Below are positions 58,285 to 64,000 of a stretch of 64,000 nt of DNA, one piece after another; position 1 is the first letter of the stretch; every line of letters begins with the position of its first letter. Source of the DNA: Thermus aquaticus (GTDB taxonomy: Bacteria; Deinococcota; Deinococci; Deinococcales; Thermaceae); contig NZ_LHCI01000106.1 of NCBI RefSeq assembly GCF_001280255.1, forward strand, positions 291,388 to 355,387, given 5' to 3'. A model generated the notes under the pieces. The model did no database searches and was not told where the DNA came from. It was given only the letters and a program-made list of their open reading frames with translations. Made by a program: the position numbers and the translations under genes.

Positions 58285-59407
58285 GGTGCCCGAGGCCTCG
58301 GTCTTTCTGGTGGTGGACGAGGCCAAAAGGAAGGCCCGGGAGAGGGGGGTTCCCCTCATAGACCTCTCCATCGGCTCCACCGACCTCCTCCCCCCAAAGG
58401 CCCCCCTGGAGGCGCTAAGGGAGGCCCTCGAGGACCCCGCCACCTACGGCTACTGCCTGAAAAGCTGCACCCTCCCTTTCCTGGAGGAGGCGGGCCGCTG
58501 GTACGAGGGGCGCTACGGGGTGCGGCTTGACCCCAGGCGGGAAGCCTTAGCCCTCATCGGAAGCCAGGAGGGCCTGGCCCACCTCCTCCTGGCCCTCACC
58601 GAGCCCCATGACCTCCTCCTCCTTCCCGCCGTGGCCTACCCCAGCTACTTCGGGGCGGCCCGGGTGGCCTCCCTGGAAACCTTTTACATCCCCCTCCGCT
58701 CGGATGGCCTCGCCGACCTCGCCCAGGTCCCCGAAGAGGTCTGGAAAAGGGCCAGGGTCCTCCTCCTCAACTACCCCAACAACCCCACGGGGGCCGTGGC
58801 CGACTGGGCCTACTTTGAGGAGGCCCTGGCCCTCGCCCGAAGGCACGGGCTTTGGCTGGTCCACGACAACCCCTATGTGGACCAAGTCTATGACGGAGAG
58901 GCCCCCTCCCCCCTGGCCCTCCCCGGGGCCAGGGAGCGGGTGGTGGAGCTCTTCTCCCTCTCCAAGAGCTACCACCTGGCGGGCTTCCGCCTGGGCTTCG
59001 CCCTGGGGAGCGAGGAGGCCATCGCCAGGCTGGAGCGGGTCAAGGGGGTCATAGACTTCAACCAGTACGCCGGCATCCTGCGGATGGGGGTGGCGGCCCT
59101 GAAAATCCCCAGGGAGGCGCTAAGGGGCTACGCCCGGGTCTACCGGGAGCGGGCCTTGGGCATGGCCGAGGCCCTTAAGGGAGCCCTGGACCTCCTTCCC
59201 CCCAAGGCCACCATGTACCTCTGGGGAAGGCTTCCCAAGGGGGTGGACGACCTGGAGTTCGCCCTAAGCCTCGTGGAAGAGGGGGTGGCCCTCGCCCCCG
59301 GGCGGGGGTTCGGGCCCGGGGGGAGGGGGTTTGTCCGCATCGCCCTGGTGCGGCCCTTGGCGGAGCTTCTTCAGGCGGCGCAGGTTATCCGAGAGGCTTT
59401 GAGTTAA
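58277..59407 (+). CDS. PLP-dependent class I/II aminotransferase
   Basis: The 376-residue aminotransferase has the fold-type I pattern: IDLSIGSTDLLPP, GYCLKSCTLPFLEEAGRWY, NYPNNPTGAVADW with the cofactor-site Asn, HDNPYVDQVYDG, and the Schiff-base Lys in FSLSKSYHLAGFRLGF. Overall it resembles LL-diaminopimelate or aspartate aminotransferases of the DapL/AlaC group, but specificity cannot be set from sequence. It overlaps the mogA-like gene by 8 bp and is followed by a hairpin. Confidence 0.85.
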   Translation: MSRVPEASVFLVVDEAKRKARERGVPLIDLSIGSTDLLPPKAPLEALREALEDPATYGYCLKSCTLPFLEEAGRWYEGRYGVRLDPRREALALIGSQEGLAHLLLALTEPHDLLLLPAVAYPSYFGAARVASLETFYIPLRSDGLADLAQVPEEVWKRARVLLLNYPNNPTGAVADWAYFEEALALARRHGLWLVHDNPYVDQVYDGEAPSPLALPGARERVVELFSLSKSYHLAGFRLGFALGSEEAIARLERVKGVIDFNQYAGILRMGVAALKIPREALRGYARVYRERALGMAEALKGALDLLPPKATMYLWGRLPKGVDDLEFALSLVEEGVALAPGRGFGPGGRGFVRIALVRPLAELLQAAQVIREALS

Positions 59408-59424
59408 GCCTGGGCAAAAGTTTG

Positions 59425-59454
59425 TGGAGAGGGCCCAGACTCTGACCCTCTCCA
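59425..59454. terminator. Bidirectional terminator
   Basis: TGGAGAGGG (59425-59433) pairs with CCCTCTCCA (59446-59454) between the convergent aminotransferase and lipoprotein genes. Confidence 0.65.
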
Positions 59455-59467
59455 TGTAACTTCTAAC

Positions 59468-60601
59468 CTACGGCTGGCAGCAGGGGAAGCCCAAGGTTAT
59501 GCGAAGACGCTTCCCCCCTTGTCCAGAGGTATTTCCCATGGTAGTAACCGTTGAGTTGCTTCCGTCTATAGCGTTGACCACGCTCAGGGGTAGGAAGTTA
59601 TCCCCCAGACCTACAAAGCTCATAACGGAATCCGCAGCTAAGCTTCCCGTGGTGGTGTTGAGTAGAACCTTGGCGATGTTCAGGCCTCCCCCCGCTGGCA
59701 GCTGACGCTCGTAAGTTGCTTCCACAGTGATGAAGGCTCCATTGGGATTGGGAGTTCCATCCCAATCAGAGTAGAAGACATCGTAAAACTCCGCACTCTG
59801 AACTCCCTCAAAATCCCGGTTGGCCGGACCCAAGTTGCCCGTGAGCCTCGTGGTCAGCTGCGCCGATCCGCTAGGGAAGGTAACAGTTTGGACAGCGCCA
59901 GACTTTTCCAAAAAGCTCAACGACTGCAAGCCGCTCCTCGTGCGGATGGGCTCGCGGCAACAATCGGTGTAGCGAACCGAGCCCTCAACGATAAGGCCGG
60001 TGCTACTGCGGTAAGTGTCCCTTACCCGAACCTGGAGAATGTTTATCTGGGCACCGAAGTTGAACAAGGCAGGGTTGCTGATAGAAATCGCGACGAAGTC
60101 CTGCAACATGTTGCCTGGGTTGCTAGGAGAGAAGGTGTGAAGAACGTTCCCATTAAGGCGAACCTCCTCTATTGCGTCATCGGCCGAGAGCTTAAGGTTG
60201 AGACTCGGGGATGAAGCGCCGTTGGGAAGGGTGAAGTAGTAGGTGTACTCGTAAATGATGGGGTTGGGGGGAGGATTGTTTGGATCGTTGTAGGCCGTCC
60301 CGTTAGGGTTGATGCCTATGTACTGGGCGTTGGGGAAGCTAATGGGAAAGCTGAGGCTGGTAACGTGGGCTTGGCGCGGAACTGTGGCCCCTGGGGTCGG
60401 ATCCACCGTGACCCACCACTCATTATCCAGTTGCCCGCCAGGGATAATGGTCCCCGCAGACTGATCGTACCCCGTGTTCAGGTTGAGCTGCACTGTAGCC
60501 CGGGTGCACTGTGTACCGGTACCCCCGCCCGGCCCATTGGGCCCGCACCCTGCCAGGAGCAGGGCCGCCAAAAGGGCTATAGCCGTCCACTTCTTCCACA
60601 T
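59468..60601 (-). CDS. Lipoprotein of unknown function, compositionally unlike its neighbours
   Basis: The 377-residue lipoprotein has a lipobox LLLAGC (C19) and a mature chain that is beta-rich and Asn/Thr/Ser-rich: TGYDQSAGTIIPGGQLDNEWW, NAQYIGINPNGTAYNDPNNPP, LKLSADDAIEEVRLNGNVL and VRYTDCCREP. A double Cys (CC) occurs twice. GC content and codon choice are visibly lower than around it. The DDAIEEVRLNGNVL section recalls GLEYA/lectin-like adhesin domains. It is preceded by SARP-type direct repeats and follows the subtilase gene on the same strand. Confidence 0.75.
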   Translation of the reverse strand: MWKKWTAIALLAALLLAGCGPNGPGGGTGTQCTRATVQLNLNTGYDQSAGTIIPGGQLDNEWWVTVDPTPGATVPRQAHVTSLSFPISFPNAQYIGINPNGTAYNDPNNPPPNPIIYEYTYYFTLPNGASSPSLNLKLSADDAIEEVRLNGNVLHTFSPSNPGNMLQDFVAISISNPALFNFGAQINILQVRVRDTYRSSTGLIVEGSVRYTDCCREPIRTRSGLQSLSFLEKSGAVQTVTFPSGSAQLTTRLTGNLGPANRDFEGVQSAEFYDVFYSDWDGTPNPNGAFITVEATYERQLPAGGGLNIAKVLLNTTTGSLAADSVMSFVGLGDNFLPLSVVNAIDGSNSTVTTMGNTSGQGGKRLRITLGFPCCQP

Positions 60602-60675
60602 GGCTTTCTCCTCTCTGAGGAGCCTAGGCGGATTTTGGGGGAAGCTCGGTTCGCCTTAAGCTGGCCTCGAGGCCA

Positions 60676-60721
60676 AAGGTAGCGCAGACCCCCTTAACGG
60701 AGCCTGAACGGTGGATGAACG
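60676..60721 (-). promoter_or_regulatory. SARP-type direct repeats and -10 upstream of the 59468 lipoprotein
   Basis: On the minus strand CGTTCA (60716-60721), CGTTCA (60705-60710) and CGTTAA (60694-60699) recur every 11 bp, separated by TCCAC and GGCTC. The last repeat is 12 bp before a TACCTT -10 box (60676-60681). The same arrangement occurs at 62148-62182. Confidence 0.75.
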
Positions 60722-60740
60722 CCTAAGGGAACAAAGGAAA

Positions 60741-60763
60741 CCCCCGGGGAGGGCCCCCGGGGG
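60741..60763 (-). terminator. Terminator of the subtilase gene
   Basis: CCCCCGGGG pairs with CCCCGGGGG around an AGGG-type loop. On the minus strand it is followed by TTTCCTTT, about 18 bp after the subtilase stop. Confidence 0.7.
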
Positions 60764-60780
60764 CCTTGGGAGGCAGGACC

Positions 60781-62085
60781 TCAGGGCTTCTGAGAGAGGT
60801 CCAGCATCCCCTTCCCCACCTCCTGCGGGGGGAAGGGTAGGGGCTGGGCGTTCTCCTCCAGGCGCTGCTGGAGCTGGGCCGGGGTGAGGTTCAGCTGGGC
60901 CGAAAGCCACAGGGCCATAGCCCCAGCCACCAGGGGGGTGGCGAAGGAGGTGCCGGTGCAAAGCCTTTGTCCACCACCTGGGGTCATGCATTCCAAATCC
61001 GTACCCGGGGCCGCCAGATCCACGTAGGTCCCCCGGGTGCTGTAGGGAGCCGGACGCAGGTCCTTGTCCAGCGCCCCCACCGCCACCAGCCCCGGCAGGT
61101 CAAAGGCAGCAGGATAGTGGGCCGGACTTCCCTGGTTCCCCTGGTTGCCCGCGGCCGCGGCCACCGGGATGCCCTGGGAGAGGGCCGCCTCCAGGGCCAG
61201 CTTCAGGGCCTCCACCGGGGTGTCGCCCCCCAGGCTCAGGTTGAGGACCGTGGGCCCCTGACGGTTTTGCACCACCCAGCACACCCCCCGCACCACCCGG
61301 CTTGCCCGGCAGACGCCGCTTTGGTCGCAGACCCGCACCGGGAGGATATCTGCATCCGGGGCTACCTCCTTCACCAGGCCCGCCGCCCCGGTGCCATGGC
61401 CGCCGGGAAAAGCGTCCTGGGGCACGGTGTCGTCTTCCACGAAGTCGTAGCCGAGAAGCTGAGGGACTACGGGGTCCACCCCGGTGTCCAGGACGGCCAC
61501 GGCCACCCCTTGGCCGGAAAGGCCTCGCTGGTGGGCCCGGAAAGCCCCTATGGCCTCCGCACCCCAGCTGTCAAAGCTCCACAGGCTTTCCGGGTCGGCC
61601 TTGTAGCTGGGGTCCAGGGCCTCCAGCTCCTCCAGGGCGCGGCCCAGGGCCTCCCCGGTGTAGCCCAGCTCCGCCAGGGCGAAGCCGCAGCCCCTAAGGT
61701 CATCCCTCCGGATGAGGGAAAAGCCCTGGGGTAGGTCGCGGAGGGCTTGGCCCAGGGGCAGGCGCAGGAGGACCCGGTCCCGGGCCACCTGGCCCAGGAC
61801 CCCCAGGGTGGCGGTGGCGGTGCCCCTCGAGGTCTGGACCTCCACCTCTTTAGGACCCCCCGCCACCGCCGGCACCCGGAAGACCAGGGCGCTTCCCGAG
61901 GCCCGCACCACCTCCGCCTCCTCACCCCCCACCCAAACCCTCGCCCCCTCCGCCCGGGCCCCGGTGAGGGTAGCCGTCACCTCCTCCCCCACCAAGGCCC
62001 TTTGCGGGGAAAGGCTCACCTGCAAGGGGGTCGGACCGCAGGCCGAAGAGAAAAGCAAGGCGAGAAACAGAAAAAGCTTCCTCAT
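60781..62085 (-). CDS. Lipoprotein S8 family subtilase with IPT/TIG-like N-terminal domain
   Basis: The 434-residue protease has a lipobox FSSAC (C16), then an immunoglobulin-like IPT/TIG domain (about 20-100). A prodomain-like section with TGEALGRALEELEAL and the S8 catalytic domain (about 190-420) follow: D200 in VAVAVLDTGVDP, H230 in PGGHGTGAAGLV, oxyanion N314 in AAAGNQGNQGS, and S380 in CTGTSFATPLVAGA. All three catalytic residues are present. It would act in the periplasm or at the surface. SARP-type repeats precede its promoter, and the regulator gene lies immediately upstream. Confidence 0.9.
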   Translation of the reverse strand: MRKLFLFLALLFSSACGPTPLQVSLSPQRALVGEEVTATLTGARAEGARVWVGGEEAEVVRASGSALVFRVPAVAGGPKEVEVQTSRGTATATLGVLGQVARDRVLLRLPLGQALRDLPQGFSLIRRDDLRGCGFALAELGYTGEALGRALEELEALDPSYKADPESLWSFDSWGAEAIGAFRAHQRGLSGQGVAVAVLDTGVDPVVPQLLGYDFVEDDTVPQDAFPGGHGTGAAGLVKEVAPDADILPVRVCDQSGVCRASRVVRGVCWVVQNRQGPTVLNLSLGGDTPVEALKLALEAALSQGIPVAAAAGNQGNQGSPAHYPAAFDLPGLVAVGALDKDLRPAPYSTRGTYVDLAAPGTDLECMTPGGGQRLCTGTSFATPLVAGAMALWLSAQLNLTPAQLQQRLEENAQPLPFPPQEVGKGMLDLSQKP

Positions 62086-62147
62086 ACCACCACCTCCGCG
62101 GGGAAGCTGTAGCCGTCCAGGTCCCAGAGGCTTAGGGGCATGAAGGG

Positions 62148-62182
62148 AGGATAGGGAAAGGGGTCTGAACGGAGCCTGAACG
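62148..62182 (-). promoter_or_regulatory. SARP-type direct repeats and -10 upstream of the subtilase gene
   Basis: On the minus strand CGTTCA (62177-62182) and CGTTCA (62166-62171) are 11 bp apart with GGCTC between. A TATCCT -10 box (62148-62153) follows 12 bp after the second repeat. The GGCTC spacer and 12-bp distance are identical to those at 60676-60721. Confidence 0.8.
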
Positions 62183-62183
62183 C

Positions 62184-63863
62184 CTAGAGGTCCTGCAAGC
62201 GGGCCCGGTAGCGCTGGGCCAGGGCCTGGTGGCCGGCTTCCTCCAGAACCCTTATGGCCTCTTCCAGAAGGGCCCGGTCCCCGCGGAGCTCCGCCCAGTT
62301 GGCCAGGGCCGCCGCCAGAAGGAGGTGTTCCCCCGCCCTTTGGGCCAGCTCCAGGGCCTTCTCGTAGGCACTCTGGGCTTCCTCCTTCCTGCCTTGGCGG
62401 TGGTAGAGGGCCCCCAGGTTGTTCCAGGCCCGGCCCATGGCCTCCAGGTTCCCCACCCTTTCCGCCAGGGCCAAAGCCTCTCGGTAAAGCCCCTTGGCCT
62501 CCTCTATAAGGCCCTGGCGCTCCTTGACCACCCCCAGGTTCAAAAGAAGGCGGGCCTGCAGGAGGGGATGGTCCGCCGCCGCCTCTAGGACCTCCCGGAA
62601 GGACTCCTCCCCCTGGCCCAGCTCCGCCAGGGCCACGGCCCGGTTCCCCAGGGCCCCCAGGTGGCGGACCCTTTCCCCCGCCAGCAGGAAGCGCACCGCC
62701 GCCCGGCTAAAGGCCTCGGCGGCCTCCTGGAAGCGCCCCTCCCCCATATGGAGGAGGCCTAGGAGGTTCCACCCCTCCCCTTGCGCGTAGGCGTCGCCCT
62801 TTAGCGCCTTTTCCGCCTCCGCCGCCGCTTTTGGCCGATCCCCCATGCGGAAGGCGAGGACCCCCTTGAGGGCGCTCTTTCCCGGGCTCTCGGGCACCTC
62901 CTCCAGCAAGGAGAGGGCCTCGGCGTACCGCCCCAGGCGCTCCAGGACCCGGGCCCGGAGGAGGAGGACCTCGAGGTCGGGGGCCAGTTCCAGGAGGAGC
63001 TCCAGGGCCTCCTTGGGATTCTCCTCCACCTCCTTCCGGGCCAGGTCCAGAAGGGCCCTTTTCCCCCGGGCTGCGTCCTCCTCCTGCCAGAGGGGAAGGC
63101 TCAGGCGGTAGTAGGGGGCGGCCTCAGGCAGGGGGAGCCTCCGGGCCAGCTCCAGGGCCACCCTGCGGGCCTCGAGGGTAAGGGTCGGCCGGAAGGTGGG
63201 CTCACCCGTGGAGGTGAGAAGGCCCCGCTTCCAGAGAAGCTCCAGGGCCTCCGCGCTCACCTCCAGGACCTCACCCGCCTGAACCGGCCCCAGGAAGGCC
63301 ACCCCGTAAAAAGCCCGGCGCGCCTCCGGGGGCAGGAGCTCCCGGCGAGGCGCCTCCTCCGCCACCTCGGCCACCCCGGGCAGGGCCAGCGCCGCCCGCC
63401 AAAGGGCTTCGCCCTCCTCCTCTAACCCCAGGGCGAAGCGCTTTCCCGCCTCCCGGAGGTGGGCGCTATAGAGGGCCTCGGCCAACGCCTCCCGGGTGGA
63501 CCAGACCCACTCCTCCAGCTCCTCGGAAAGGTCTTCGTCAGCCCCTTCCAGGAAGCGGCCCCGGTAGAGGGCCCGGGCCTCGTCCAAGCGGCCCTGGGCC
63601 AGGACCTCCTTAAGGAGGAGGGCGTCGCAGGCTACCCGGGCCTCCAGGACCTCATTCCCCACGATCGCCACCCCGGCCCGCTTGAGTTGGGAAAGGGCCA
63701 CGGAGAGGCTGTTCTTTTGGTCTTCGGCCCGGGGCCAGAAGAGCTCCTGGAGGTGGCGGCGGGACTTGGGGCCCTCGAGGGCCAGGTAGGCCGTCAGGAG
63801 GAGGGGCTTTTTCTTGCTAAAAGAGGCCCCCTCTAACCTCAGTCCCCCCAGGGTGCGGAGCAC
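62184..63863 (-). CDS. SARP/BTAD-family transcriptional activator with TPR domain
   Basis: Starts at GTG 63863. The 559-residue protein has an N-terminal winged-helix region (MLRTLGGLRLEGASF, KSRRHLQELFWPRAEDQKN, SLSVALSQLKRAG; about 1-85). It continues with a bacterial transcriptional activation domain (about 90-165: LEARVACDALLLKEVLAQG, LSEELEEWVWSTREALAE). A third, mostly helical section follows, and about 330-559 contains repeated TPR helices (AMGRAWNNLGALYHRQGRKE, AQSAYEKALELAQRAGE). No NB-ARC ATPase is present. Its stop codon abuts the 11-bp direct repeats of the subtilase promoter. It lies 9 bp from the folC end. Confidence 0.82.
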   Translation of the reverse strand: MLRTLGGLRLEGASFSKKKPLLLTAYLALEGPKSRRHLQELFWPRAEDQKNSLSVALSQLKRAGVAIVGNEVLEARVACDALLLKEVLAQGRLDEARALYRGRFLEGADEDLSEELEEWVWSTREALAEALYSAHLREAGKRFALGLEEEGEALWRAALALPGVAEVAEEAPRRELLPPEARRAFYGVAFLGPVQAGEVLEVSAEALELLWKRGLLTSTGEPTFRPTLTLEARRVALELARRLPLPEAAPYYRLSLPLWQEEDAARGKRALLDLARKEVEENPKEALELLLELAPDLEVLLLRARVLERLGRYAEALSLLEEVPESPGKSALKGVLAFRMGDRPKAAAEAEKALKGDAYAQGEGWNLLGLLHMGEGRFQEAAEAFSRAAVRFLLAGERVRHLGALGNRAVALAELGQGEESFREVLEAAADHPLLQARLLLNLGVVKERQGLIEEAKGLYREALALAERVGNLEAMGRAWNNLGALYHRQGRKEEAQSAYEKALELAQRAGEHLLLAAALANWAELRGDRALLEEAIRVLEEAGHQALAQRYRARLQDL

Positions 63864-63869
63864 GCACCC

Positions 63870-63875
63870 ATTCTA
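63870..63875 (-). promoter_or_regulatory. -10 box of leaderless SARP-like gene
   Basis: TAGAAT on the minus strand ends 6 nt before GTG 63863 and overlaps the folC stop codon. No CGTTCA repeats precede it. Confidence 0.4.
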
Positions 63876-64000
63876 TTGCCAGCGTTCCTCCGGGGGGAGG
63901 CCCCTCAGGGCCCTCAGGACCTCCCCCACCAGGTAGAGGCTCCCCGCCACCACCGCCCGGTCCGCAAACCCAAAGGCCCGCTCTAGGGCCTTGAGGGGGT
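63873..64000 (-). CDS. folC: Folylpolyglutamate/dihydrofolate synthase, C-terminal end
   Basis: The 42 codons in view read GFADRAVVAGSLYLVGEVLR and end RGLPPEERWQ before TAG 63873-63875. VVAGSLYLVGE is the characteristic C-terminal strand-helix of FolC (Mur-ligase family), which adds glutamate to folates. The rest lies beyond the window. With folB and folP at 41-42 kb the folate pathway is represented twice in the window. Confidence 0.85.
   Translation of the reverse strand, partial: PLKALERAFGFADRAVVAGSLYLVGEVLRALRGLPPEERWQ

Follow-up and report, generated by a model that had tools for sequence, protein, structure and literature searches.

A divergent SARP-type regulator and predicted AfsR-like operator repeats at a subtilase/lipoprotein locus of Thermus aquaticus

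On the minus strand of a 64,000-nt stretch of the Thermus aquaticus genome (contig NZ_LHCI01000106.1, positions 291,388 to 355,387; hereafter the window), the gene for a putative transcriptional activator is followed by genes for a subtilase and a lipoprotein, both of which are preceded by short direct repeats with an 11-bp period. The question raised by this locus is whether the regulator encoded there is the protein that reads the repeats. The reading favoured here, with a probability of about 0.8, is that an AfsR-like activator drives the subtilase/lipoprotein module, the regulator and its two target promoters forming a compact unit.

The regulator gene (62184..63863, minus strand) begins with GTG and encodes 559 aa. 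It is followed by operator 1 (62166..62182, minus strand), which comprises two repeats with an 11-bp period (CGTTCA-GGCTC-CGTTCA) and is separated by 12 bp from a predicted -10 box, TATCCT (62148..62153, minus strand). The ATG of a short ORF, MPLSLWDLDGYSFPAEVVV (62082..62141, minus strand), lies exactly 6 nt past this -10 box, a spacing from which its start is predicted to be leaderless, and the end of the ORF overlaps the start of the subtilase gene by 4 nt (ATGA). The short ORF is kept in relatives and had no evident signal sequence. The S8 subtilase (60781..62085, minus strand) possesses all of the motifs DTGVD, GHGTG and GTSFATP, together with an N-terminal signal, a lipobox-like Cys and a weak TIG match. 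Between its end and operator 2 there is a terminator-like hairpin (60738..60766, minus strand), a type of match whose frequency in the region was not above that in shuffles. Operator 2 (60694..60721, minus strand) consists of three repeats with the same period (CGTTCA-TCCAC-CGTTCA-GGCTC-CGTTAA), again 12 bp from a predicted -10 box, TACCTT (60676..60681, minus strand). The predicted lipoprotein downstream (59468..60601, minus strand; 377 aa, lipobox LLAGC) had no informative family match, and its GC3 was 0.68 compared with 0.85–0.88 for its neighbours. A search from 59300 to 64000 revealed no sigma-70 promoter-like site (TTGACA/TATAAT). The SARP-type promoter design, i.e. 11-bp repeats, a fixed distance to the -10 box and no good -35 element, is found here, with binding of a protein to the repeats as the prediction. 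An earlier note on this DNA had described the regulator, the repeats, the subtilase, the lipoprotein and the 12-bp spacing to the -10 boxes, and every coordinate was borne out.

The repeats occur far above the level of chance. The whole 2.25-Mb genome contained four CGTTMA-N5-CGTTMA pairs compared with none for a reversed-pattern control, and the window contained no pairs besides operators 1 and 2. The full element, CGTTMA-N5-CGTTMA-N12-YAnnnT, was found twice in the whole genome, only at the two promoters described above; with up to two mismatches allowed, there were five genome sites compared with one in the control. The small, self-contained regulon proposed for the locus thus holds for this genome. 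A scan of 27 Thermus genomes gave 71 pairs compared with none in the control.

The geometry of the element was also investigated in 27 regulator loci of the Thermaceae, which were scanned from -60 to +2000 relative to the regulator stop using a slightly looser box ([ACG]GTT[AC]A-N5-NGTT[AC]A) and spacers from 0 to 15. The repeat spacer was 5 in 23 cassettes (41 sites) and 10 in two; the remaining values gave no pair. The distance to TAnnnT was 12 in 22, 23 in five (triple repeats), and 7, 11 and 18 in one each; in G018, the closest relative, the gap between repeat and -10 box at the first promoter is 11 bp instead of 12. Dinucleotide shuffles gave averages of 0.02 and 0, and a chance origin of the repeats was ruled out by the whole-genome control counts and these shuffles.

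The regulator comprises an OmpR-type winged helix (about residues 1–78), BTAD-like helices and a C-terminal TPR region. AF2 models were obtained with a pLDDT of 93.9 for the whole protein and 94.4 for residues 1–245. Since the full-length fold search returned a list filled by TPR proteins (NprR, Z 20.9; Rap, about 20; Tom71, Z 22.1), a separate model of the SARP domain was built and used as the query. The best PDB match of this N-terminal model was AfsR in a transcription complex (8k60_J; Z 12.0, 139 residues, rmsd 2.3), together with EmbR (Z 11.6–11.2), the next fold scoring 7.7. The aligned part covered about residues 1–143 for AfsR and 1–175 for EmbR, and so included helices that come after the DNA-binding domain. 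The OmpR-type winged helix that characterizes the SARP family is accordingly present at the N-terminus of the modelled protein.

Sequence searches were less informative. Pfam and NCBIfam recognized only TPR families in the regulator, and Pfam BTAD was not recognized in the ~560-aa family itself; a SARP-domain profile gave matches in all 27 Thermus genomes and matched larger proteins carrying Pfam BTAD and AAA domains (one at E 5e-17), among the relatives being a 1115-aa protein of G019 with BTAD, AAA and TPR. A domain-profile sequence search of the PDB gave no SARP match, the G019 relative matched AfsR at 6.6e-6 among TAL-repeat matches, and its first 140 residues gave nothing useful. The AfsR DNA-contact residues Q48, W74, P79, T88, R94 and K95 were compared by eye only, with no residue-level alignment: W43 of the regulator seems to correspond to W74, and K61/R62 to R94/K95, whilst T88 and R92 seem to be replaced. 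Taken from the model, the assignment of the regulator as a divergent SARP-type protein is supported. The SARP-type reading of the earlier note agrees with the AfsR and EmbR fold matches, with the BTAD domains of the profile relatives and with the core and geometry of the published AfsR box (PMC10972967, PMC10936776).

AfsR of Streptomyces coelicolor is a large SARP with an OmpR-type DNA-binding domain, BTA, NOD and TPR parts, and resembles the regulator in its N-terminal fold and C-terminal TPR. AfsR has a NOD/ATPase domain and a BTA domain, whereas Pfam recognized neither an ATPase domain nor BTAD in the 559 aa of the Thermus regulator; past the SARP-like region the model was all helical and TPR-like. 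Identity as an AfsR orthologue was rejected because the ATPase (NOD) domain between the SARP and TPR parts was not recognized. AfsR binds CGTT(T/C)ATCGNN repeats (PMC10972967), the afs box extending from -40 to -19 (PMC10936776). Like it, the Thermus operator has two CGTT(C/T)A-type repeats with an 11-bp period and a distance to the -10 box that agrees within 1 bp; the fifth base of the box is C or A in Thermus, but C or T in the AfsR box. With the Thermus -10 box set at -12 to -7, because the predicted leaderless ATG lies 6 nt after it, the first bases of the repeats would fall at -41 and -30, offset by one base from those of AfsR and thus within 1 bp of their position in the afsS promoter. 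The systems differ in their targets, AfsR controlling afsS and antibiotic regulation, whereas the Thermus protein, in a different phylum, would control a subtilase/lipoprotein module. EmbR of Mycobacterium tuberculosis shares the N-terminal winged helix and BTA helices, but has a C-terminal FHA domain (PMC10936776) where the regulator has TPR. The TPR fold is also like that of the NprR/Rap peptide receptors, a match that is generic since TPR proteins of eukaryotes reach similar scores (Tom71, Z 22.1); compared with the RRNPP peptide-sensing regulators, which combine an HTH and TPR with a gene for a cognate secreted pro-peptide, the regulator has a TPR region like that of NprR/Rap and many others, and a DNA-binding domain that matches SARP proteins best.

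The ~560-aa regulator family was found by pairwise search in 18 of the 27 Thermus genomes, some of the matches being weak or broken, and also in Meiothermus and Calidithermus, where the same layout of regulator and boxes occurs. Absence of the repeats from orthologous promoters, which according to the earlier note would have refuted its reading, was not observed, the repeats proving to be kept in all three genera. Nearly every intact locus had a box pair, placed where the regulator gene ends, just past that point or in the promoters that follow; the flanks and spacer sequence have diverged, whilst spacer length and core are kept. In several cassettes the operator shares sequence with the final codons of the regulator, stop included, so that coding constraint might account for some of its conservation there; the boxes of the window and those of the second promoters are clear of this constraint. 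The chromosomal site of the cassette differs between species, its neighbours being folC-like, polX-like, truB-like or other genes (names assigned by eye), and the boxes move together with it. In the A2 subfamily (G010, G011 and G021) the subtilase is present and no operator was detected beside it.

A CGTTCA-first pair with a correctly placed -10 box was found in 11 of the 13 Thermus genomes with an intact regulator, compared with one of the 14 without (Fisher p ~7e-5, from a tabulation by hand in which the genomes are related, so that the value is indicative and not a literal probability). The single exception in this tabulation was a 65 %-complete genome.

In two related Thermus genomes (G012 and G013), GGTTCA replaces the box at both cassette promoters. 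Residue 59 in the recognition helix, which is Gln in most regulators, is Ala in these two cassettes, and two Meiothermus-type loci whose boxes are altered have Arg, yet G015 also has Ala and lacks a clear G-first box. With few independent events and this counter-case, there is only a hint that residue 59 acts as a box-specificity code.

An S8 subtilase was encoded downstream on the same strand, mostly by the next gene, in every intact locus of the ~560-aa family (family A) that was examined, and in 11 of the 12 loci examined of ~800-aa relatives from elsewhere in the Thermaceae and from further families of the phylum; none was found beside the 900–1100-aa relatives examined. Twelve pairs at spacer 5 were found in eight of 20 loci of the larger relatives, 10 of them with a -10 box at 12, compared with 0.1 and 0, respectively, in shuffles and with three or fewer at other spacers; no box was found at some ~800-aa loci. 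CGTTCA-type pairs with a -10 box at 12 hence recur beside relatives in other families of Deinococcota. The genes directly after the boxes mostly encode predicted lipoproteins, and in the closest relative a different lipoprotein occupies the place of the last one in the window. Regulator and subtilase are the conserved core of the loci examined, and the downstream lipoproteins vary. A role in anti-phage defence was considered and rejected, since only TPR and subtilase models of a general kind and, weakly, IetS were matched.

The protein that reads the boxes might be encoded elsewhere. Direct repeats with an 11-bp period are likewise bound by regulators of the OmpR/PhoB type, and PhoP of Streptomyces competes with AfsR for sites that overlap (PMC10972967), so a chromosomal response regulator could in principle share such boxes. 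The regulator of the cassette is not itself one, an identity that was rejected because it opens directly with the winged helix and has no receiver domain. Genomes lacking this regulator have CGTTAA pairs, equally far from the -10 box, before a yqeG-pilF-like operon and before a putative GGDEF gene, as well as CGTTAA pairs before a capD-like gene; other proteins therefore read near-identical boxes. CGTTCA-type sites, however, go with the cassette to different chromosomal places and track the intact regulator across genomes, both promoters of one cassette type have switched to GGTTCA, and the genome has just two full sites, both at this locus. A chromosomal response regulator is accordingly an unlikely reader of the boxes. 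A different SARP-like protein of Thermus might instead bind the repeats, with the cassette regulator acting elsewhere or as a co-regulator. Candidates are an AfsR-size BTAD-ATPase-TPR protein, such as the 1115-aa protein of G019, or the core ~500- and ~900-aa regulators; SARP-domain profile matches are found in every Thermus genome, and CGTTAA boxes flank a second (family-B) SARP-like gene in genomes without this regulator. The core regulators, however, occur in genomes without CGTTCA-type sites and so do not track the sites, and the linkage to the cassette and the joint change of its boxes favour the local regulator, which makes a reader of this kind quite improbable.

That the repeats have no regulatory role, and reflect chance, codon conservation at the C-terminus of the regulator or the end of a mobile element, is scarcely credible. 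The box does span the regulator codons EAFRPR-stop in many cassettes, but it is non-coding in this genome and several others, the second promoter sits between other genes, and the spacer varies in sequence with length and core constant; shuffles give about none, and with the whole-genome count they largely refute this explanation.

The favoured reading, in which the local AfsR-like activator binds the boxes, suggests the following course of events. Judged from the fold of the N-terminal winged helix, every CGTT[C/A]A repeat would receive a recognition helix of the regulator, neighbouring helices being aligned along the same DNA face in the manner of AfsR. Given the 12 bp between the last repeat and the TAnnnT -10 box, and with no sigma-70 promoter-like site with a -35 element found, the bound regulator may take the role of the -35 element and bring RNA polymerase to the promoter. 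The secreted, predicted lipid-anchored subtilase would then be turned on via the predicted leaderless short ORF that overlaps its start, and the surface lipoprotein separately from the second promoter. The C-terminal TPR region may replace the NOD-TPR part of AfsR and sense a ligand, possibly a peptide or a partner protein tied to the protease. Rather more speculative, and on balance doubtful, is the proposal of a surface-proteolysis signalling circuit formed by a SARP-TPR regulator that reads an AfsR-type operator and has, in much of Deinococcota, a lipid-anchored subtilase as its stable partner, the TPR region sensing a product of the protease or the conserved leaderless leader peptide.

BTAD-type proteins outside the Actinobacteria are not new, since DnrS of Thermus thermophilus, a BTAD-containing activator needed for nar and dnr transcription, has already been described (PMC5748679). 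DnrS has an N-terminal GAF and a C-terminal BTAD and acts in oxygen and nitrate control (PMC5748679); its domain order differs from that of the cassette regulator, a putative activator with BTAD-like helices, and an 11-bp repeat box of this kind is not described for DnrS in the passages covered. No SARP-type operator in Thermus or its phylum and no regulator–subtilase pairing was found in the literature covered, which included few subscription journals. Nor did that literature describe such boxes outside actinomycetes, and the earlier note knew of no report of the arrangement outside Actinobacteria.

The SARP promoter design, familiar from the control of antibiotic production in actinomycetes, is extended by these results to a deep-branching phylum in which the box is almost identical. 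This suggests a mechanism of activation that either arose before it was put to use in antibiotic clusters or passed from one phylum to another. The results also provide a concrete predicted operator for the SARP-like regulators of Thermus and a thermostable minimal activator, with no ATPase domain recognized, for structural work, and they point to a widespread surface module of regulator and subtilase.

Box pairs of the CGTTAA type were found at several other Thermus promoters (loci L083-L122, for example L090, L112 and L118), where the sequence CAnnnT lies 12 bp downstream of the pair. In these other Thermus genomes, such pairs are located upstream of a yqeG-like gene, behind which lies a pilF-like gene, and also upstream of a gene that follows speA and putatively encodes a GGDEF protein; capD-like genes are preceded by boxes as well; the names yqeG-like, pilF-like, GGDEF and capD-like were assigned by eye from the N-terminal sequence. 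CGTTAA-type pairs also occur in Thermus genomes that lack a regulator of the 559-aa type.

The genome of the window has a box pair after speA as well, outside the window (L105, position 4324; G000:C106:264323). The sequence directly 3' of this pair (DEALYRAKRAGKNRLETA) looks like the terminal codons of a GGDEF-like gene, as if the body of the gene had been deleted.

A second SARP-like family, of approximately 560 aa, possesses a SARP-type N-terminus followed by a region that matches AAA weakly and contains a Walker A motif. It is present in about half of the Thermus genomes (L086, L088, L097, L103, L115, L117 and others), is absent from the genome of the window, and has a divergent promoter region that carries CGTTAA boxes, some of them with a 12-bp step.

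Two copies of the 559-aa-type regulator are broken: in genome G007 (L081) the first part alone is kept, with no subtilase at the remnant, and in genome G024 (L080) the gene is split across two frames. Neither the G007 nor the G024 genome contains CGTTCA-first pairs.

CGTTCA-type boxes were also found divergent from thrS (L089, L093 and L107), and an ORF downstream in L107 appears to encode a lipoprotein containing Ig-like sequence; these boxes possibly represent a third target in other Thermus genomes.

Ahead of the subtilase, a short ORF (MPLSLWDLDGYSFPAEVVV; 62082-62141, minus strand) has its ATG exactly 6 nt past the predicted -10 and overlaps the subtilase start at its 3' end. Similar leaders beginning MPxS occur at the same distance from the -10 in other genomes (L064-L067, L244, L247, L248, L250 and L257), and the ORF is predicted to encode a leaderless leader peptide. 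The lipoprotein gene (59468-60601, minus strand) has a GC3 of 0.68, compared with 0.85-0.88 in its neighbours, and in the closest relative the equivalent position is occupied by a lipoprotein that looks unrelated, which suggests that this position is a variable surface gene slot.
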